Origin: a virus
Direction: 5' to 3' (one strand)
DNA: 41,116 bases
IMG/VR virus record: IMGVR_UViG_3300026130_000010
Location: 1-41,116 of that record
The notes under the pieces were generated by a model. The model made no database searches. It was not told where the DNA came from and worked only from the letters and a program-made list of their open reading frames with translations. Each line of letters begins with the position of its first letter. The stretch's first letter is position 1. A program made the position numbers and the translations under genes. Of this stretch, positions 3,342 to 36,693 are shown piece by piece.

Positions 3342-5102
3342 ATGTCTTGTAGTAATACAACACCTCTTGTAAGTAGAGCATCTTCACTGATTCTGACTAC
3401 AGACAGTGAGGTGTTTCTTAACCTAGATTTTCCAAGCGTTGTCTCGGGTGAATTAAATCCAGCGAGTGACTATGATAGTACTCAGTTAGGTAATATCACT
3501 GATGCTATTTCAGCAATTACATCTAATGTTGATTTATCGAATTATCCTACACTAAGCAATAAGCTAAGTCAAACGCCTTTAACGAAAGTTGAGGTTGCTG
3601 ACTTTCTTACGACTACTGGGTTTGATCCTGACATTGCAGAAGAAGACTTGAATAAGTTTATTGAAGATAATGTCATACCACCTCAGACGAAATATGACGC
3701 TAACACTAATTTGCCAGTGTTCACTACTATTTCTATACCGATTGCTAACATTCTAGGTCAACTAGATTTCTATCTTGATCAGAACTTTGGTAAGACTATC
3801 TCTGCTGGCTTCTGTTCTATTCTAGCGAATCCGTTTCAGAATATTATGAAGCTTGTAGCACAGATTGAGATTGCTAAGGGTCTAGTCAATGAGCTATCTA
3901 ACTTTAGTCTAGATGATTTTCTAAGTGGTCTTGCCGCTAAGATTCTTGGTCCACTGAATCAATTAAAAGATATGATTCTCGGCATTGTAGATAGCATTAA
4001 ATCTAATTTAACAAATATGGTTGAGAATGTCAAGAAGAAATTTAATAAAATTGCGAAAGACCTTAAAGCTGGTGCTGCTAAGCTAGAGCGCAAGATTAAT
4101 AAGATGGTTAATGGTATTAAAGATTTCTTCTCTGATTCTTCTACTGCTACTCTTAAAGAGAAACTAGAAAAGCTTATCTCTGGTGCTGCCTCACAGTTTG
4201 AAAAGCTAACTACTGATGCTCTAGCCTTTTTGTTGTTTAGTTTCTGTAAATTAACTGAGGGTATCCAAGACTTTTTGAAGTCGCCTGTAGACGCATTTGC
4301 TGACTTTGTGCAAAGCATTTCAGCCGCTTCACTTGCAGTTGAGAATATGTCTAAAAGCGAAACTCAAAAAGCAGTAGAAGCTGGCGCCGTACGCATTTCA
4401 CAAGAAGACGTTACACAACGTCAAACTCAAATGCGAGAAACGATTAATCAAGTTTATAAAGCTTCACAGTCTGCACAGACTACAGCACAAGTACCATCAA
4501 GAACAGAAGGTAGTATTACACCTACAGAACAACAAACACCTGCGCCTGTTGCAGTTGGTTCACTACCGTATATACCAAGTCGTGAACTAACAGACGATGA
4601 AAGAGATGCGCTAGATGGTATGAATGAAAGCGGTGTACCAGGATTTATTCGCTTTGAGCCATCTGTTCAAAATATGGGCAAGAGCGTTTCAGACGCTAAC
4701 GATGAAGATGGATGGAGACAAGTTGATCCGCTAGTATGGGTCAAGCTACTCAAGATTAAAGCACGTATGGGAGATATGGGTTATCCGCTTGTTATTAACA
4801 GTGCTTATCGATCACCAGATTATAATAAAAATATAGGTGGCGCCAAACAATCAATGCATATGAGTGGTAAAGCAGTTGATGTATCGACTACATTTATGAC
4901 AGAAGCTCAAAAGCAACAATTTATTCGTTATGCAAGTGAAGAGGGTTTCGGTGGCATCGGTGTGTACGCAACATTTGTACACGTTGACCTACGACCAGCT
5001 AGAGTTGGTTGGTATAAGATTAGACTCAATCGAGATATCTACATATCATTACTAAAAGCACATAAGCGTGGTGATTTCGTAGACGGGATTTCTAGAAGTT
5101 AA
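3342..5102 (+). CDS. Virion-associated M15-type zinc peptidase with a long N-terminal structural region
   Basis: This is a 586-residue protein. Residues about 455-575 look like a peptidase M15 (M15A/VanY-like, Peptidase_M15_3 type) domain, a zinc enzyme that cuts peptide cross-bridges of peptidoglycan. Visible signatures are SAYRSPDYNKNIGG (487-500), SMHMSGKAVDV (504-514), and FVHVDLR (545-551). Predicted zinc ligands are His506, Asp513 and His547. The N-terminal region has a conserved-looking structural part, then a Lys-rich helical section (about 204-290) that may form coiled coil or touch membrane or DNA, then a Gln/Thr/Pro-rich linker (about 365-410). There is no signal peptide. It sits between the spike gene and gp25, so it is probably carried in the baseplate or tail and cuts the wall during injection, replacing the missing gp5 lysozyme. 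The catalytic assignment is by motif; the virion location is inferred. Confidence 0.8.
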   Translation: MSCSNTTPLVSRASSLILTTDSEVFLNLDFPSVVSGELNPASDYDSTQLGNITDAISAITSNVDLSNYPTLSNKLSQTPLTKVEVADFLTTTGFDPDIAEEDLNKFIEDNVIPPQTKYDANTNLPVFTTISIPIANILGQLDFYLDQNFGKTISAGFCSILANPFQNIMKLVAQIEIAKGLVNELSNFSLDDFLSGLAAKILGPLNQLKDMILGIVDSIKSNLTNMVENVKKKFNKIAKDLKAGAAKLERKINKMVNGIKDFFSDSSTATLKEKLEKLISGAASQFEKLTTDALAFLLFSFCKLTEGIQDFLKSPVDAFADFVQSISAASLAVENMSKSETQKAVEAGAVRISQEDVTQRQTQMRETINQVYKASQSAQTTAQVPSRTEGSITPTEQQTPAPVAVGSLPYIPSRELTDDERDALDGMNESGVPGFIRFEPSVQNMGKSVSDANDEDGWRQVDPLVWVKLLKIKARMGDMGYPLVINSAYRSPDYNKNIGGAKQSMHMSGKAVDVSTTFMTEAQKQQFIRYASEEGFGGIGVYATFVHVDLRPARVGWYKIRLNRDIYISLLKAHKRGDFVDGISRS

Positions 5103-28100: not shown

Positions 28101-28597
28101 ACAGATTTGCTTATAAGAAGTTTCAATCTGCACCTATGCCAGTTCCATTTGAGAATACTAAGATTTATGTAGTTATAGGCATGAATGATAATGCTAAAAT
28201 AAATAACATAGTATTTGAAGAAATATTCTCGCAATCTAAAATTACCAAGACTCCACAATGGATCGCTGATCAAGATAGCTCTATTGATATCGTTTTAAGC
28301 GGTGGTTCTACATTAGATAGATCACCAGCAAACTTCAATAGTAAAGATAGACTATCTGCTGTCACATTTGATAGCTCTACAGATCAGCCACTAAGACCAG
28401 GAGTCGATGTGACAGAATTATTGCTAGTAGCTGGTGAAACAAGAAGATTTGACTTATCAAATATCTTCAACTATGACAGAAAGAAATTGAGTAAAGGTCT
28501 ATTCAATAATAAAGCATATTATGTCGTAGTTCAACCAATAGGCGAAGGCAATACTGGTGGTAAGATTAGTTTAGCATTAACGGTGAAGGAACAATAA
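25151..28597 (+). CDS. Large virion structural protein, second of two tandem paralogues
   Basis: A 1148-residue protein. It shares with its upstream neighbour a TLLGVPRSESQLSLFSDV block (about 113-130), FRYQPGR (344-350), SWYGAVG (469-475), GNDGARWVRIH, SYYIDGGDEGT (about 540) and a C-terminal block with FNYDRKKLS and a final EQ. The order of shared blocks is the same, which indicates duplication and divergence. It lacks the KCxRD repeat unit and has an N-terminal extension of about 100 residues and a different middle (about 620-1000). The gap to the upstream gene is 3 nt. The ribosome site (AGGA) is very close to the ATG, so coupling is likely. It is probably a second adhesin or fibre component. 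No enzyme motif was seen. Confidence 0.75.
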   Translation: MAKQIKIGHDRVPAPITERYVPLYDVFSGTILRDVAGNPVVTPEETILGNFIESQNATPVFISNKTPGEVYQKFERDGDTFIKKVDGEPLLGTADLTIKVREVFPSTTEVSNTLLGVPRSESQLSLFSDVSTYGLDVDNWTYYTFSGALDYPSEWYRRKNKTYGRRGGMEFIEYTEEQALALRGYPVQYTFPFGPSHEGVGRYSENRFRQYKRFIAIGKELYSYFASKGYQQFAENNFVPDYIKFVDQDRNPIASNVVVNVTGEDIENLNSAYDIDYGDDLQLAFDQIEAWTQAYSAIRNQRLLAPITLPDNIVRYILTNSTLIAPGYSTGANYYAMLESVDTFRYQPGRISGMTFGIRVKNDTSNIENVVEWGGCNDTDQYVFQVRGGEFNIIRRSTIPLPESLLKRMGLDSNYQTGPKYADGINQKYQIYETVVQRQFFNGDRLDGNGPSGYNLRFENVTMFKIEYSWYGAVGVNFYAYIPTGNDGARWVRIHTMIIENGLGEPILQNPEFKFRYFISTNNTGSITEPMYVYKYGSSYYIDGGDEGTLRLNASDSVVRDFDTLFNKGALGVMPKGFISNADGEYLPNNLKAYPVELSASTDSSALIQFREIIGSPDGMHFHYSPSLHNGISNKSKKFRLAVTDAGGVTLDYDEFDPTLTNQVLFAEEDKYRKVIADGVHNLYLNPTVGTSSASILRRQGYNLSTQQFPSQIKYSNGDEIVDTAGLSFVAKCSRYDEIIASPTALTSDTFSVNWLNPVARDSDGYNHFADFFIGLTYDQPVSASIQDPNDENNNIQVLRFGAEEEQYDTTSALTDGTVAVYSHYNQNVDLDGYDRYEWDPTYGIRFDIDPRLPRPAGSDSGIISKLVGNITINPIDVVEVVEGGSTPGSTHTLKILAPIQNFREADAGKIDLGVNNAPSGIIIMSAPQQTEENAQTIFLIDVYYDGDITSISGWNNVVQYKTVRLSDDYRISGYEYINGQLEDRFAYKKFQSAPMPVPFENTKIYVVIGMNDNAKINNIVFEEIFSQSKITKTPQWIADQDSSIDIVLSGGSTLDRSPANFNSKDRLSAVTFDSSTDQPLRPGVDVTELLLVAGETRRFDLSNIFNYDRKKLSKGLFNNKAYYVVVQPIGEGNTGGKISLALTVKEQ

Positions 28598-31110
28598 TGG
28601 CTAACTTCTATTTTGGGCTTAATGCAAACAAGAACTTTTCAGAAGTTCAAGATAAGATTAAATCACTAGCTAATCTAGGTCTAGATATTGAAGACTTAGA
28701 TAAGATTCGTGGTATCAGTAACGTTGGCGTAATTGCCGCAGATATTAAGTCTCTAGCCAATCTTCAAGAAGATGCTAGAAGGGCTTTGGGTGCTTTACGT
28801 GCAGACGCAAACATTTGGGATGATATTACACGTGACTTTAAAACTGTTCGTGATATTATCAAAACAAATACAGTCATAGAAGAAGGCCAACTAAAAGCAC
28901 AGGCAGTAAAATATACATTCTATGACTACGGTACAGATACATTAAAAACTGCTGATATTTCTACTTCACGTGTTTCTGCTTGGTCGCAGTTCCCGAATAC
29001 AACTGAAATTTTTTACGGTAGTGACGTTGAAGTTGTACCCGCTCCTGCTGGCGATCCTAATGTGGGTAGAAGTTATATAGAATTCGATCATCTGTTTTTG
29101 AAGTCTGCGCCTACGCCAAAGCGTTTTAAAGCCGAAGTTCCGACTCATACTATAGATATCGAAATAAATGGTTCTATAAAGAAAGCATATGCAATGCAAG
29201 GCATCCCTCTTGTATTCAACGGCTTCTTTAAGACTGTTAGCACGTATGTAGAAATTGACGAAACAGTTAGCCCAAGTATTCCTCCCACATATCTTGTACG
29301 AGGCGTTGATGAAGAAGATGAAGATATTCGTGAAGATCAACCACTAACGTCTAGCTTACGTTTTTATGATTATCGCTATCGTGAAAAAGATATAGAATTG
29401 TATTACAGACCAGATGGGTTCAAGAGAATCGATATTGGTTATGCAAATCTAAGCGAGTTTCCGAATACTGTACTTTCTAATTTGCAGCATCTAGGTATTG
29501 CGTTTAATGATTTTCGTGAAATACCAGACTTTGCTACGCTTGCACCTAATTTGAAAAAACTATATCTAAATGGTAACGATTTAAATCGTGGTACTTTAAA
29601 TTCTGCACAGCAAGTATTGAGACTACCTTCTTCGTTGACTCACTTGAACATTACTGGTACATTTACAGATAATCAAAATCTAGATTTGACACATTTAACA
29701 AATCTGCAATATTTGTACTTTTCAGAATATGCTTCACGTTATATTAGAAGACGTATTGTAAGTCCAATTAGTCCTGCTATTGCACCAAGCATTATTCACT
29801 ATGACGTATATAATCAAGGGCATAGTAGACTACATACAACTGTTTGTGATGCCCCATTGTTAGAAGACATTACAATATACTGGAATAATATCACTAGAGA
29901 TAATTTGGATAGACCTATTGTTATGAAATCCGCACTAGGTTCTGGTGAAACTCATACTAGAGGCGCAAGTGATGTTGTGACTGGCACTGGCTCACTAAGA
30001 TACTGGAGATCAGCAAGTAACTCACACAACATATTATCAGTTAAAGGTAATGGTGGCATAGTCTATTATCAGCACTCGTATAGTCGTGGTCTAGTTAGTG
30101 ATGCGTATAACAATAATGAGTTTGGTGATAAATTTAATGGGTGCAATAAGCTAGCTACTATAAGCTTCTATGCTACAGATATTCGTGGTAACGTTGGTAC
30201 AGCTATCTCGGCTCTACCTGCAATAAGCTGGTTCGATGTTAGATTTTCGATAATGCACGGTAAGCTTACTGGCTCTTCTACTGTTGGCTCAGAGTCTTTG
30301 CGTAGTTTCTTGGTTGCTGGTGGCTACTTTGGTCGTGAGTCTGTTGGTGGTGCAGAAATTCCATACACTCAGAAAACTATTCAAGTGGAAACTCCACCTG
30401 GCTCTGGTATTTTTGAAGATCAGCTAGTAGACACTGATTATCAATTCTTTGATGAAACTTCTGGTCGCATCTTTGAGCGTTGCGCTGGATTTCAGGATCT
30501 ATATGCATACAGCACTAGAAGCATTAAAGGTACTTTGCCAGATTTGTCACGTAACTATAGTACAAGAGTTGTATATGTCCCATATACTAATTTGAACACT
30601 GGGTTAGAGTACTTAACTGCACTACCTTCTATGTATTATCTGAACATCGATAACTGTAAGTTTACATCGATGCCAAAATTTACGTCTAATGCATTAACAT
30701 ATTTCTATGCACAAACTAATTTATTCTCAGGCATTCTTCCAGAGTTTGATACACCAAGCTTAAGATACTTTTATGCCTACAACAACTCATTCAGTGGTGC
30801 AATACCTAACTTTGGTCAATGTACTAGACTGGAGCGATTACTGCTAAATAATAATAGCTTTGAAGGTTACACTCCTGGTGCATTGTCTATTAACACTAGA
30901 CTAAATCGCTTAGATTTATCTAACAATAATTTGACACGTTCTTCTATTGTTACATTGATTGATGATCTAGAAGCTAATTACAATGCAAATACTCGCAGTG
31001 GAGTGGCTGTGATTCTAACTGGTAACGGTGTTACTGCTGGTGATCTACCAGAAGCAACTGTCACAAAAATCTCGAATCTAATTAATAACGGCTGGAGCGT
31101 TTCAATCTAA
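28597..31110 (+). CDS. Leucine-rich-repeat virion adhesin-like protein
   Basis: An 837-residue protein starting at a TAATG overlap with AAGGA upstream. The N-terminus (FGLNANKNFSEVQDKIKSL, about 5-25) resembles docking segments of other adhesins here. Leucine-rich repeats are visible in two blocks. The first, about 290-385, has LQHLGIAFNDFREIPDF and NLKKLYLNGNDLN. The second, about 655-790, has LPSMYYLNIDNCKFTSMPKF, LRYFYAYNNSFSGAIPNF, LERLLLNNNSFEGYTPG and LNRLDLSNNNLT. The second block uses the FxGxIP form best known from plant and some bacterial LRRs. LRRs form curved binding surfaces, so host-surface recognition is a reasonable inference. No signal peptide or catalytic motif was seen. The C-terminus ends NNGWSVSI. 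LRR structure is supported by sequence; the receptor is unknown. Confidence 0.8.
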   Translation: MANFYFGLNANKNFSEVQDKIKSLANLGLDIEDLDKIRGISNVGVIAADIKSLANLQEDARRALGALRADANIWDDITRDFKTVRDIIKTNTVIEEGQLKAQAVKYTFYDYGTDTLKTADISTSRVSAWSQFPNTTEIFYGSDVEVVPAPAGDPNVGRSYIEFDHLFLKSAPTPKRFKAEVPTHTIDIEINGSIKKAYAMQGIPLVFNGFFKTVSTYVEIDETVSPSIPPTYLVRGVDEEDEDIREDQPLTSSLRFYDYRYREKDIELYYRPDGFKRIDIGYANLSEFPNTVLSNLQHLGIAFNDFREIPDFATLAPNLKKLYLNGNDLNRGTLNSAQQVLRLPSSLTHLNITGTFTDNQNLDLTHLTNLQYLYFSEYASRYIRRRIVSPISPAIAPSIIHYDVYNQGHSRLHTTVCDAPLLEDITIYWNNITRDNLDRPIVMKSALGSGETHTRGASDVVTGTGSLRYWRSASNSHNILSVKGNGGIVYYQHSYSRGLVSDAYNNNEFGDKFNGCNKLATISFYATDIRGNVGTAISALPAISWFDVRFSIMHGKLTGSSTVGSESLRSFLVAGGYFGRESVGGAEIPYTQKTIQVETPPGSGIFEDQLVDTDYQFFDETSGRIFERCAGFQDLYAYSTRSIKGTLPDLSRNYSTRVVYVPYTNLNTGLEYLTALPSMYYLNIDNCKFTSMPKFTSNALTYFYAQTNLFSGILPEFDTPSLRYFYAYNNSFSGAIPNFGQCTRLERLLLNNNSFEGYTPGALSINTRLNRLDLSNNNLTRSSIVTLIDDLEANYNANTRSGVAVILTGNGVTAGDLPEATVTKISNLINNGWSVSI

Positions 31111-32039
31111 TGGCACGTGGTTTTTTACAAGAGCTTAATCTAAAAGAAAGCGATACGTTTGATAAAGACGCAAAAGCGATTAACACGCTTGCTGGTGAAC
31201 CTATCGCAGAAGACTTATTGCGCTATGTAGGCAACTTGCGTAATATTAGTAGTATCACTAACTACACAATAGACGGTGACACTATCACTACTATTGAAGA
31301 CTTGCCATTTGCAAATGGTAACTTTATATTCTATAATTCTGATGTATACTACGTTTTTGATTCTGATGTTGATAGTAAGTTTAGACTAAAAGATTTAGAC
31401 GGTGTTCCTTTTTCAGAAACAGATAATAGCGTACCACTAGTACGTGCCGATGCAGTATTTACAGAAAATACATCTTTACTCAGACCAGTACGTGTCGTAG
31501 AAACAAGAACTAATGACGGCATAACTAACGATGAAGATAGATCGGATAGTATTTGGGAAGAAGAACAAGAGCGTACACTTGAAGGATTGATTGACGATAT
31601 CGAATTTGGTGTAGCTAATTTCAAATACAAAAAGCGAAACACATTTGTAAGTTTTGATGATATCAACACAAATAGAGTTATCAAACTTGATGGTTCGCTA
31701 ATGATTACGAACCCAAGTACAGTACCAACAACGTCGGATGCTGGACCAGGTCTGTTCATTACAGATGGTATTACAACTCTACGTGCATTCAGTGATAACT
31801 CGAATCCATGGGATCCAGAAGCTGGTCAATCGCCAACAGTAGCAAACACCATATCAATAAAACCTGCACTTACTGCAAGCGCAGTAAATACTATTGTATT
31901 GACTGATCCACTTATCACAATGGATCCTACTGATATTATTACAGCTAGTGGTGATATAACTGACCCGTCAACTGGTTGGACTCATAAAATCGAAGTTACA
32001 GTTAACGGGTCACCTTATTATTTACTATTTAAGCAATAG
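31110..32039 (+). CDS. Small fibre-like protein with adhesin-type C-terminal motif
   Basis: A 309-residue protein. The N-terminus (GFLQELNLKESDTFDKDAKA then a INTLAGEPI segment) has the pattern of a docking segment. The middle is acidic (about 130-155). The C-terminus reads HKIEVTVNGSPYYLLFKQ, the type of short strand pair that ends many marine phage fibre proteins. The gene starts in a TAATG overlap with the LRR gene, which suggests both are made together. Its last 15 nt overlap the convergent gene on the opposite strand. Its similar C-terminal motif to that gene (SGSDTYQLLLK) suggests both belong to one adhesin class. Function is inferred from motif and context. Confidence 0.7.
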   Translation: MARGFLQELNLKESDTFDKDAKAINTLAGEPIAEDLLRYVGNLRNISSITNYTIDGDTITTIEDLPFANGNFIFYNSDVYYVFDSDVDSKFRLKDLDGVPFSETDNSVPLVRADAVFTENTSLLRPVRVVETRTNDGITNDEDRSDSIWEEEQERTLEGLIDDIEFGVANFKYKKRNTFVSFDDINTNRVIKLDGSLMITNPSTVPTTSDAGPGLFITDGITTLRAFSDNSNPWDPEAGQSPTVANTISIKPALTASAVNTIVLTDPLITMDPTDIITASGDITDPSTGWTHKIEVTVNGSPYYLLFKQ

Positions 32040-32046
32040 TTGATAA
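32018..32046. other. Interrupted palindrome at overlapping convergent stops
   Basis: TTAT-NN-ACTATT-5 nt-AATAGT-NN-ATAA is centred on base 32032. Both convergent genes end within it: TAG on the + strand (32037-32039) and TAG on the - strand (complement of CTA at 32025-32027). It could be a weak bidirectional terminator, or a short inverted repeat left by an inversion. It has few G-C pairs, so terminator strength is doubtful. Confidence 0.4.
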
Positions 32047-34322
32047 GTGTCAGATCCACTATAAACTTTCAAAACTTCTGTATATGTTGTGCTAGACTCT
32101 TGATTAACAGTCATACCATTTAATGTTAGGTTGTTAGCCTTTAGATCAGAAGTTTTGAGTTTATAGTTTCCACTAGCATCTGTTGCTAGACCACTTAATG
32201 TACCAACAAATGGTGGAGCAGTGTTAGGTGGAATAGTACAAACTTCATAATCTGTTCCAGCTTCATACTTGTCAGAAGGGATAACAGTAACAGCAAAACC
32301 TTGACTTAAGTTTGCAGTTAAAGCACTACTCAATGTCAATGTATTACCAGATACAGTCACAGTCGCACCTGCAGGTATGATTCCACTGAACTGTACATAG
32401 TCACCGTTTGCTACATTTGAAGCATCTAGTACAGTAAATGTATTTGCACCTGAGTTAGCAGTTGCAGCAACTTCTACATAACTTACCCTCTCACACTTAG
32501 CCGCATTTGTAGTATCTTCAAGCGCTCTTCTTGCATATACCAGAACTAGCGAGTCTGGCCCTGAACTTATGCTTGCTGCACGTCCGTTGAAGTTAGAGTA
32601 TGTTGTAACTAATTGACCAGGTTGAGCGCCATTTACAGTAACTTCAGTGAGTCTTGCAAAGTCAGTACCATTGTTTTGAGTACAGACAAACATATCTGGC
32701 TTTACTCTAGTTATATCATTATAATGTGCAGGTGGTGGTACCTCGAATCCATTTGCATTAAATACTAAACTTGTTCCTAATGATGACGTAAAATTATAGA
32801 TTCCAATTAATCCGTAAGCCTTAACTAGCTTAACTGAGGAGTATGATGCAGTATTCGTGAAAGTATTTGTGTACGCATACTGTGTACCCTCTAGTTGTGC
32901 AATTTGAAGAACGTATATATCACCGCTTACGTTAAATACTAGAAAGTCACCAATCTCAGCATTAGTGAAGTCACCTTCTAACTTATACGGACCTTTTCGT
33001 GTCACTGTACCAATATCATAGTGAACATCGTCAACAGCAACGTTAAGTTGAGGTGGGTTTTGTGCTGGTGGTACAAAAGAAGACCACAAATCAAGACGAA
33101 TTGATTCGCTACTGACCATATTCTTTTGCTGCATCAAAGGCGCAGTATTTCTTAGAGCACCTTTATAGAATTGCTCAAAGCTTTCATCTGCGACACCATC
33201 TAGTGACAAAATATCATTTGGTCTAGTATACGACTCATAGAAGTTTGCGTAGTGAGTGTATGAACCAGAAGATGAAGCAAAGCGAATATATTTTCTAGAA
33301 AAAGCATTAGTTACTGGAAACTTTACAGCATTGAAACAGTTTGTAGATGTAGTTGATGGATCAGGCCACCAAACTGTGAAGCGAACTTTTAATTTATCAC
33401 CTACCGCAGTAGATGGTAGATAGCATCTTCCAGTAGTCTCTTCATTACCGAAATCGTACTCGAATACAAGAGTGTTTGTATTAATAACGAAGTCAACGGA
33501 TGTACTTAATGTTACCGTTGTGGAAGTTTCTCCTATTTCAATATCAGTAATTGTGATATTATCGTTAAATACGTCTACTGTATTAAGCGTTACAAGACGA
33601 TCACCAACCGCTAATGATATGTTGTCTATTACAGGTAGCGTAAATGTTGATTCTGTTACAGCCGCAGTTTTCTCTGTAGTTGTAGATCGTGAAACTGCTA
33701 GTCTGCTACCAACAGTGGTAAACCCATATGGATTGCTATCACCATCATGCTGATAAGTGTTATACTCTATCAAATAGAATCCAGATGTTACTATGCTAAG
33801 CGTTGTCGTGTTTGTGACATACCCTTCCCATTGAATCATACCATATTGATTAGGTAAAAATGGATGAAGCTTAGTATCAAAGAAAAAGTAACCATCATCC
33901 CAGAAATTCAACTCTTGAAAATCATATTGACCAGTAAATAGTTGATCGCCTTTTATAGAAGATGAACTAAAGTCAGATATCACTTTTGAGCCTTGAATGA
34001 ACTTTGCGGGTAGACCTTGGCCGCCACGGGCGAAGGCTGGATTACCACTAAATACTCTATAATTATTGATGTGATCCTGAATAGTAACAATCACTGGAAC
34101 TGGGTTAAAATCAGAGTCTTTAATAGCTATACCGCCTAGATTGTAGATATCTTCTAACTCAACCGAAGTGTTTTTTAGACCATCGATAGCTGACTTTACA
34201 TCTCGCCCATTAAAGTTACCTGACAAGTTGTTTAGCAAATTGTCAAGCGCAAGCGATTTGTTATCTAAGTCAGATAGATTTTTATCTTGTCTGAGGCCAA
34301 TTTTTTGATATTTTCTAAGCAT
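32025..34322 (-). CDS. Virion structural/adhesin protein on the opposite strand
   Basis: This is the only clear - strand gene, 765 residues. The N-terminus (YQKIGLRQDKNLSDLDNKSL, about 5-24) resembles a docking segment seen in structural proteins of marine T4-like phages. The next part (about 55-165) has FARGGQGLPAKFI and a FWDDGYFFFDTKL segment. A C-terminal part has a TFTVLDASNVANGDYVQFSG repeat and ends in SGSDTYQLLLK, similar to the end of the convergent gene. The ATG is preceded by GGAG at 5 nt. A TATAAATA box on the - strand (34365-34358) lies 35 nt upstream, so it has its own late promoter. It is probably a fibre or adhesin. The inverted orientation is unusual for this cluster. Confidence 0.75.
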   Translation of the reverse strand: MLRKYQKIGLRQDKNLSDLDNKSLALDNLLNNLSGNFNGRDVKSAIDGLKNTSVELEDIYNLGGIAIKDSDFNPVPVIVTIQDHINNYRVFSGNPAFARGGQGLPAKFIQGSKVISDFSSSSIKGDQLFTGQYDFQELNFWDDGYFFFDTKLHPFLPNQYGMIQWEGYVTNTTTLSIVTSGFYLIEYNTYQHDGDSNPYGFTTVGSRLAVSRSTTTEKTAAVTESTFTLPVIDNISLAVGDRLVTLNTVDVFNDNITITDIEIGETSTTVTLSTSVDFVINTNTLVFEYDFGNEETTGRCYLPSTAVGDKLKVRFTVWWPDPSTTSTNCFNAVKFPVTNAFSRKYIRFASSSGSYTHYANFYESYTRPNDILSLDGVADESFEQFYKGALRNTAPLMQQKNMVSSESIRLDLWSSFVPPAQNPPQLNVAVDDVHYDIGTVTRKGPYKLEGDFTNAEIGDFLVFNVSGDIYVLQIAQLEGTQYAYTNTFTNTASYSSVKLVKAYGLIGIYNFTSSLGTSLVFNANGFEVPPPAHYNDITRVKPDMFVCTQNNGTDFARLTEVTVNGAQPGQLVTTYSNFNGRAASISSGPDSLVLVYARRALEDTTNAAKCERVSYVEVAATANSGANTFTVLDASNVANGDYVQFSGIIPAGATVTVSGNTLTLSSALTANLSQGFAVTVIPSDKYEAGTDYEVCTIPPNTAPPFVGTLSGLATDASGNYKLKTSDLKANNLTLNGMTVNQESSTTYTEVLKVYSGSDTYQLLLK

Positions 34323-34357
34323 GAGACTCCGCCATGTTAATGAAATGTCGTTTACTG

Positions 34358-34371
34358 TATTTATATAAATA
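34358..34371. promoter_or_regulatory. Bidirectional T4-type late promoter in a perfect palindrome
   Basis: TATTTATATAAATA is a perfect 14-bp palindrome containing TATAAATA on the + strand (34364-34371) and on the - strand (34365-34358). It lies in the only divergent intergenic gap. The boxes are 33 nt before the GTG of the + gene and 35 nt before the ATG of the - gene, each with a GGAG-type ribosome site. Late polymerase could start in either direction, but the overlapping boxes should not be used at the same moment. Confidence 0.8.
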
Positions 34372-34404
34372 TGTTAGAGATTGAATAGTAACTGGAGAAG
34401 CAAA

Positions 34405-34743
34405 GTGGCAATCAAAGCAAACATCGTAATCGATCAAGGTACTGACTTTTCTTCAGTGATTGATGTGACTGATGATCAAGATCGTCCATTTGATTTGACA
34501 GATTATGTCGCTAGTTCACAGATGCGTAAGAATTATGCATCTTCAACTGCGGTGACATTCAATACTAGCGTTAACGAAGCTAGTGGTCAAATCTATTTAG
34601 AGCTTGATAAATCTACGACTAGTCAACTTGAACCTGGTCGTTATCTTTATGATGTTGAAATCACTGCCGCACTAGGTAACGGATCGACTATACGTGTTGT
34701 CGAGGGCATTGTAACTGTAACACCTGGAATGACGAGAGTGTAG
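34405..34743 (+). CDS. Small conserved structural protein, BppU/Ig-like fold candidate
   Basis: A 112-residue protein. The GTG start at 34405 is chosen over the in-frame TTG at 34381 because GGAGAA lies 5 nt upstream of the GTG and the TTG has no good site. The start then gives MAIKANIVIDQGTDF, closely like the start of the next gene. The sequence is a beta-sandwich pattern: NIVIDQGTDFSSVIDVTD, then FDLTDYVASSQMRKNY, a QIYLELDKSTTSQLEPGRYL strand and RVVEGIVTVTPG. This resembles the N-terminal domain of BppU-type baseplate proteins and similar small proteins of marine T4-like phages. It lies first in the operon driven by the + side of the bidirectional promoter. The next gene begins 1 nt after its stop. 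Confidence 0.65.
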   Translation: MAIKANIVIDQGTDFSSVIDVTDDQDRPFDLTDYVASSQMRKNYASSTAVTFNTSVNEASGQIYLELDKSTTSQLEPGRYLYDVEITAALGNGSTIRVVEGIVTVTPGMTRV

Positions 34744-34744
34744 C

Positions 34745-34960
34745 ATGGCGATCAAAGCAAAGATAACACCGCAAAATAAAATTAAAGTAACAAATTATCA
34801 AACTAATGCTTCTAAGATTAGGCTGAATGATCTAATGGACGTAAGTCGTGAAACAGCGTCAGACGGATCACTTTTAATATACAATGGACTTACTGAGGTG
34901 TGGGAGCCAAGAAGTGTTGTAGAGAACGAGAATACTGAGATCAATGGAGGAGAGTTCTGA
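34745..34960 (+). CDS. Small conserved phage protein, unknown function
   Basis: A 71-residue acidic protein. It starts MAIKAKITPQNKIKVTN, sharing its first residues with the preceding protein, followed by IRLNDLMDVS and DGSLLIYNGLTEVWEPRSVV. The motif GSLLIYNGLTEVWEPR is similar to small linker or neck-of-fibre modules in marine phage adhesins, where a DG..L.YN...W pattern is common. The gene overlaps the next by one base (TGATG), with a strong GGAGGAGAG ribosome site for that next gene inside its end. It may be a fibre accessory or linker. No firm function. Confidence 0.65.
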   Translation: MAIKAKITPQNKIKVTNYQTNASKIRLNDLMDVSRETASDGSLLIYNGLTEVWEPRSVVENENTEINGGEF

Positions 34961-36693
34961 TGGCAGGCTCAATAATTAAAATAAAACGATCTTCAGGGTC
35001 CGCCAAGCCTAATACGCTGAAGCTAGGTGAATTAGCAGTAACATACGGCCCCGGAGATTATACCAATTTTGGTGATAGACTATTTGTAGGTGCAGGTGGC
35101 ACAGACGTTAATGGTGATGCGCTTCAAATTGATGTAATTGGTGGTAAGTTCTTTACTGATCGCCTTGACCATCAACAAGGTATTCTCACTGCTGATAGTG
35201 CTATTGTAGTAGATGCTGATAAGAAAGTCAATGAGTTTTTCGTAGATACGTTAAAACTTGATGGTAATACTCTTAGCGCTACTGGTACTGGTGAAGGTGC
35301 AAATATTAATATCACTGCTAACACAAGCGGTACTATTAATCTTAACTCACCTGTTAATCTACAAGGCACCGAGCTTAATGTAAGCGGTTCAGTCGGCATT
35401 GCTAATACAGCAATTATTGCCGACCTTGTCGTTTCTGACTTGACTGAAAATCGTGTTGTACTTGCTGGCGCAAACGGTGCAATTGAAGATAGCGCAAGTC
35501 TTACATTCGACGGCTCTACTCTTGCTCTTACTGGTGATTTTGATATCACTGGTAATATTACACCTACTGCTGATAGGACTTATTCGCTAGGTACTGCTAA
35601 TAACGTATTCAGCGAAATTCACGGTTCTCAAGTATTCGTTGACGACATTAAACTTGATACTTCAGGTAACGTTCTTTCTGTTACAACTTCTGATGATTCT
35701 GTCGCTAAGATTGATGTTGATCAACTAGACGTTGCAACCACTGCTGATATTGCAGACATTCGTTTCTCGCTAAATGCAATCGAATCTATCCAACCAGGTC
35801 AAGACCTAATCTTGAACCCTAACGGTGGCAATGTAAACGTATTCGGCCACATTGTAACTGGTGCGGCAGATCCTGTTGCGAATACTGATCTAGTAACTCT
35901 ACAATATCTAGAATCAAGAACGCTTACTATCTCTGCTGATCAAGATGCTGTTGGTAACACTGCACCTGACGCAATTAATGATACTGTAGTACTTCTATCT
36001 GAGACTCTTTACTTCTTGGGTGAAACAGGTATCACTACTAAGATCACTGATAACACTATCACATTTGATCTTGATGATACTACTGTTACTCCTGGATCGT
36101 ATGGTTCAACTACACAGATTCCTACATTTACTGTTGATCAGCAAGGTCGTCTAACTTCGGCTGGTACTGTAGACGTTGCAACTGTTCTAACAATCAAAGC
36201 TGATCAAGATGAACTAGGCAACACTGCCGCAACTGATGATATTAACCTACTATCAGATACACTTGCAATCGTAGGTGGTACAGGTGTAGATACTGAGCTA
36301 GCAGATAATCAAATTACTGTAAGCATCGGTCAGCCAGTTTACACTACTTCTGATGTAACCTTTAATGATGTTACTGTAGATGGTACATTATTCTCTAACG
36401 ACATTACTGCAAACACTGTTGTAATTGCTGGTAACCTAGTCGTTGAAGGTACAACTACAACTGTTAATACAGAAGAAATTAATCTTGCTGATAACATCAT
36501 TGTACTTAACAGTAATCTAGATGCTAACACTGCACCAACACAAGACTCTGGTATTCAGATCAATCGTGGCTCGGGTAACAGTGTTCGTTTCTTCTGGGAT
36601 GAGACAAATGATTGGTGGAGCACTGGTCCTGATCCTTTAGATCCAACTCAGTACGCTAGACTAGAAGCAACCATCGATGGTGGTACATTCTAA
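34960..36693 (+). CDS. Tail-fibre-like protein with shared docking domain
   Basis: A 577-residue protein. The N-terminus (IIKIKRSSGSAKPNTLKLGE, then LAVTYG) is a docking domain also present in the gene at 36803. Residues about 55-210 hold repeats (DRTYSLGTANNVFSEIHGSQ and similar) typical of fibre shafts. About 385-400 has IPTFTVDQQGRLTSAG, a motif repeated in the last gene of the window. About 475-555 has NTVVIAGNLVVEGTTTTVNT, then EINLADNIIVLNSN and RFFWDETNDWWSTG, a widely shared end segment of fibre proteins. The protein has no catalytic signature. It begins in a TGATG overlap with a strong ribosome site and is followed by the longest intergenic gap in the window. Confidence 0.75.
   Translation: MAGSIIKIKRSSGSAKPNTLKLGELAVTYGPGDYTNFGDRLFVGAGGTDVNGDALQIDVIGGKFFTDRLDHQQGILTADSAIVVDADKKVNEFFVDTLKLDGNTLSATGTGEGANINITANTSGTINLNSPVNLQGTELNVSGSVGIANTAIIADLVVSDLTENRVVLAGANGAIEDSASLTFDGSTLALTGDFDITGNITPTADRTYSLGTANNVFSEIHGSQVFVDDIKLDTSGNVLSVTTSDDSVAKIDVDQLDVATTADIADIRFSLNAIESIQPGQDLILNPNGGNVNVFGHIVTGAADPVANTDLVTLQYLESRTLTISADQDAVGNTAPDAINDTVVLLSETLYFLGETGITTKITDNTITFDLDDTTVTPGSYGSTTQIPTFTVDQQGRLTSAGTVDVATVLTIKADQDELGNTAATDDINLLSDTLAIVGGTGVDTELADNQITVSIGQPVYTTSDVTFNDVTVDGTLFSNDITANTVVIAGNLVVEGTTTTVNTEEINLADNIIVLNSNLDANTAPTQDSGIQINRGSGNSVRFFWDETNDWWSTGPDPLDPTQYARLEATIDGGTF

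Follow-up and report, generated by a model that had tools for sequence, protein, structure and literature searches.

The divergent gap in a baseplate and tail-fibre module

The window analysed here, the whole stretch of 41,116 nucleotides, is a piece of a T4-like marine virus and covers a baseplate and tail-fibre module, with matches to PHROG baseplate wedge, hub and tail-fibre families. It is a genome fragment in which gp55 is not encoded, and comparison of its nucleotide sequence with phages returned nothing beyond short fibre matches. All genes taken from the window are rightward except 32025-34322, the sole minus-strand gene, which lies head to head with a plus-strand gene at 34405-34743 across a gap of 82 bp. 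This gap (34322-34405) had been described in the initial annotation as the only divergent one, which is true among the genes taken. At its other end the inverted gene overlaps the rightward gene 31110-32039 tail to tail by 15 bp (32025-32039). Further upstream, the 837-aa product of 28597-31110 (plus strand) contains leucine-rich-repeat-like stretches (LPSSLTHLNITG..., LRYFYAYNNSFSG...), which are unusual in a phage tail module; its PHROG match is marginal.

The rightward gene, here called the AIK gene, starts with GTG and encodes a 112-aa protein of an LtfC-like beta-sandwich or 'L-shaped tail fibre assembly' family. It matches PHROG 1084 (1.4e-27) and 3304 (2.2e-24), and its match to the Pfam family LtfC is under that family's cutoff. 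Two further genes on the same strand (34745-36693), both with PHROG matches, presumably belong to the same operon.

The inverted gene encodes a 765-aa product, probably a tail fibre or adhesin, with a conserved N-terminus, a variable body and a predicted PA14-like domain. The N-terminus, KYxxxGLRxD[KR]N (KYxxxGLRxDKN in the window), defines the family, which we refer to as the 'GLRxD' fibre gene. Sequence searches of PHROG, Pfam and PDB gave no weighty match for the product, the full-length protein had no matches in viral contigs, and N-terminal queries against an annotated phage collection found none either; relatives were recovered only with a profile of the N-terminus (40 loci). The structure model, whose confidence is moderate to low (mean pLDDT 64), weakly matches PA14-type sugar-binding adhesin domains, so the name 'adhesin', given in the initial annotation, is plausible as a fair guess.

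A perfect palindrome with a late box on each strand

Within the gap lies a 14-bp perfect palindrome, TATTTATATAAATA (34358-34371). The sequence bears out the earlier description of it: each strand carries an exact T4-type late box, TATAAATA, at 34364-34371 on the plus strand and at 34358-34365 on the minus strand, with 2 bp in common. The distances from box to start codon agree as well, being 33 nt to the GTG at 34405 and 35 nt to the ATG at 34322, and a GGAG-type ribosome site precedes both starts (for the AIK gene, probably the GGAG at 34394-34397). No sigma70-like hexamer pairs were listed across 34340-34390; a T4-type late promoter needs no -35 element. For marine T4-like phages, NATAAATA has been published as the late promoter (PMC2984593), and the late box of T4 occupies positions -13 to -6 (PMC1524935). 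With the spacing seen in T4, transcription of the rightward fibre-assembly operon would begin near 34377, giving a leader of about 28 nt, and that of the inverted fibre gene near 34352, giving a leader of about 30 nt.

TATTTATATAAATA has a single exact copy in the window and none of 100 dinucleotide shuffles holds any. TATAAATA by itself is not enriched (6 observed against 4.2 expected). The window has 12 NATAAATA sites; just one of them is on the minus strand, within the palindrome and facing the one gene transcribed from that strand.

The palindrome follows the divergent layout

Relatives of the AIK gene were collected from the best 80 viral loci together with loci reached from the inverted gene; removal of duplicates left 75 distinct loci. 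The palindrome was present in 25/25 loci, the window itself included, where the AIK gene and an inverted 'GLRxD' fibre gene diverge, one locus (L222) being scored as divergent with its inverted gene cut by the contig end. It was present in none of the 50 loci with another layout, and 29 of these 50 have a NATAAATA box upstream of the AIK gene. Within the best 80 loci, overlapping boxes occur wherever there is a large divergent neighbour and in no other layout. The initial annotation named, as evidence that would count against its proposal, close relatives with the divergent layout but no palindrome; none of the 25 distinct loci is of this kind. Two registers of overlap exist among the divergent loci, a 12-mer (TATTTATAAATA, 4 bp common to both boxes) and the 14-mer TATTTATATAAATA (2 bp common).

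The association between palindrome and layout is strong (Fisher 2e-20), a value computed on the 75 loci as if they were unrelated; owing to kinship, the 25 divergent loci represent fewer than 25 independent events. The AIK protein tree needs at least five changes of layout, of which supported branches force only about two. The three loci with the 14-mer do not cluster in this tree.

The same pattern was found from the other side. Of the 40 loci retrieved with the N-terminal profile, all in which the inverted gene faces an AIK gene contain the palindrome, as does L226, whose sequence ends just past the AIK gene start. Where the inverted gene stands elsewhere (L230, L234, L236-L242), there is a single box, boxes on the same strand only, or none adjoining. 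Viewed from either gene, the second box tracks the presence of a divergent partner.

Palindromes in T4 and other T4-like viruses

Whole T4-like records contained 15 copies of the 12-mer in 40 records and 33 copies in 35 further records. Divergent ORFs flank 45/45 of the palindromes for which loci were cut out from these 75 records, which is not an unbiased rate because many of the records were picked for containing a known pair. The other three palindromes are two in Melin, at 120758 (gene 26/gene 51 gap) and 161988 (gene 253/holin), and the copy in the 26/51 gap of CF1; no palindrome examined in T4-like records fell outside a divergent gap. The flanking genes include pairs unrelated to that of the window, namely gene 26/gene 51 in Straboviridae, a MAEPTTKAEFKEYCLRKLGKP gene with a small gene, Melin 253/holin and the G040 pair. 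In six loci (L418, L421, L425, L429, L433 and L437) the palindrome is lengthened to three overlapping boxes, TATAAATATTTATAAATA.

The 14-mer was found in 2/50 T4-like records, each time in the gap between an AIK gene and an inverted gene. Across the virome as a whole it lacks this specificity: of 80 fetched loci with the 14-mer, only 14 had it in a divergent gap. The cultured Pelagibacter phage Mosig EXVC030M has the 14-mer between its divergent genes 81 and 82 (60971-60984; 4972-4985 in locus L374), whose putative products are a hydroxylase-domain protein and a nitroreductase; the rightward start lies only 5 nt from the box and is possibly misannotated for this reason.

T4 itself (NC_000866) has a single copy of TATTTATAAATA, at 116450-116461, within the 50 bp that separate gene 26 from gene 51. 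The 12-mer is exact in 17/19 distinct 26/51 loci across Straboviridae and altered in JSE and L396, and the annotation of GenBank M77695 records overlapping TATA boxes for T4 genes 26 and 51. The T4 site resembles that of the window in the logic of the palindrome and in its position between divergent late genes (baseplate genes in T4), but the genes are different, the boxes overlap by 4 bp rather than 2 bp, and the gaps from box to start are shorter (17 and 21 nt against 33 and 35 nt). Two other divergent gaps of T4 (77338-77384 and 112008-112056; L448 and L450) have late boxes face to face, and the start regions overlap there because the boxes are only 6-7 bp apart.

A probable shared bidirectional late promoter and its alternatives

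Evidence that such boxes act as late promoters was sought outside the palindromes. After masking of the palindromes in 21 sequences of divergent layout, 13 copies of TATAAATA remained at distances of 15-80 nt upstream from long genes, where 0.46 would be expected, and gp55, the late sigma factor, is encoded in both long records of this layout (131 and 144 kb). The boxes, their spacing to the starts and the strict tie to divergent pairs argue that the palindrome is a conserved, shared bidirectional T4-type late promoter, a reading to which we give a probability of about 0.87. The relatives strongly support the original proposal that each strand carries a T4-type late promoter (25/25 against 0/50; 45/45 divergent in the selected records). 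Judging from sequence comparison, symmetric late promoters of this kind very probably recur in T4-like viruses, T4 included, at divergent gene pairs.

Use of a single direction in practice, with the second box a by-product of the self-symmetry of TATAAATA, is improbable. TATA-rich boxes are indeed partly symmetric and weak two-way firing is common among bacterial promoters (PMC12825309), but TATTTA would stand ahead of TATAAATA by chance with a probability of only ~0.0003, the palindrome is absent from all 29 non-divergent AIK loci that have a box upstream, and the minus-strand gene would be left without any other NATAAATA in the window.

Another possibility is that the palindrome is the operator through which a dimeric repressor or regulator controls both genes, its likeness to late boxes being incidental. 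This would account for the perfect dyad symmetry, which is typical of dimer sites. However, either half is an exact late box, and relatives that lack the divergent partner retain one box, at its normal spacing, beside the gene that is left. The 4-bp and 2-bp registers would alter the spacing of a dimer, and the same palindrome occurs at unrelated gene pairs. We consider an operator very unlikely and rejected it on the test of layout.

The orientation of the inverted gene, opposite to all its neighbours, could also suggest an invertible tail-fibre cassette with the palindrome marking a recombination site. This was rejected as highly improbable, since strong flanking inverted repeats are absent (the long-range pairs found are imperfect, with at least one arm within the inverted gene) and in the relatives the inverted gene at the palindrome points the same way with respect to the AIK gene. 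A chance AT-rich palindrome can be dismissed almost entirely: the 14-mer is fairly common in AT-rich viromes, frequently within genes, but under a second-order Markov model 0.0004 copies would be expected in 41 kb, and the layout test and the comparative data, with a perfect association in the relatives, contradict it.

Choice of direction at the proposed symmetric promoter

If the palindrome is a bidirectional late promoter, host RNA polymerase with gp55 would read TATAAATA in both orientations. The boxes overlap and the predicted starts are just 25 bp apart (23 bp for the 12-mer), so a polymerase bound one way would be expected to exclude the other. The bacterial bidirectional promoters described by Warman, Grainger and co-workers (PMC12825309) are alike in having overlapping symmetric -10 elements on opposite strands, where opposed polymerases sterically exclude each other. 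They differ in using sigma70, with preferred start distances of 18, 10 or 23 bp, whereas in the proposed phage promoter the box is the entire gp55-type promoter. At the E. coli promoters competition is absent at basal strength and appears only under strong activation (PMC12825309); by these data, competition at the palindrome may matter only with strong initiation. The comparisons made here speak neither for nor against the fixed expression ratio of the two genes that the initial annotation suggested.

Flanking sequence may tip the balance towards one direction, as may the orientation of the gp45 sliding clamp. In T4 the orientation of the clamp is set by the strand with the 3' end, and swapping the nicked strand flips the polarity of late activation (PMC2988020). 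As the promoter is symmetric and clamp orientation decides polarity in T4, steering by replication polarity is possible; we hypothesize, although this is rather unlikely, that clamp orientation sets the direction and that the palindrome is a replication-polarity switch dividing late transcription between divergent virion genes.

The late promoter NATAAATA of the marine T4-like cyanophages S-PM2 and Syn9 (PMC2984593) has the same box and belongs to the same clade but was described as one-way, and no papers on bidirectional T4-type late promoters were found in the open-access literature. What is new is the T4-type late form of the already known bidirectional promoters, for which the T4 26/51 gap is the precedent.

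T4 late transcription is the textbook example of how a moving replication clamp activates a promoter. A late promoter with a conserved, symmetric core, which T4 also has, would offer a system for studying how polymerase chooses a direction when the core sequence has no preference, and a ready test of whether promoter overlap determines how much of each virion part is made. For T4-like genomes, the palindrome gives a simple rule for the annotation of divergent late genes.
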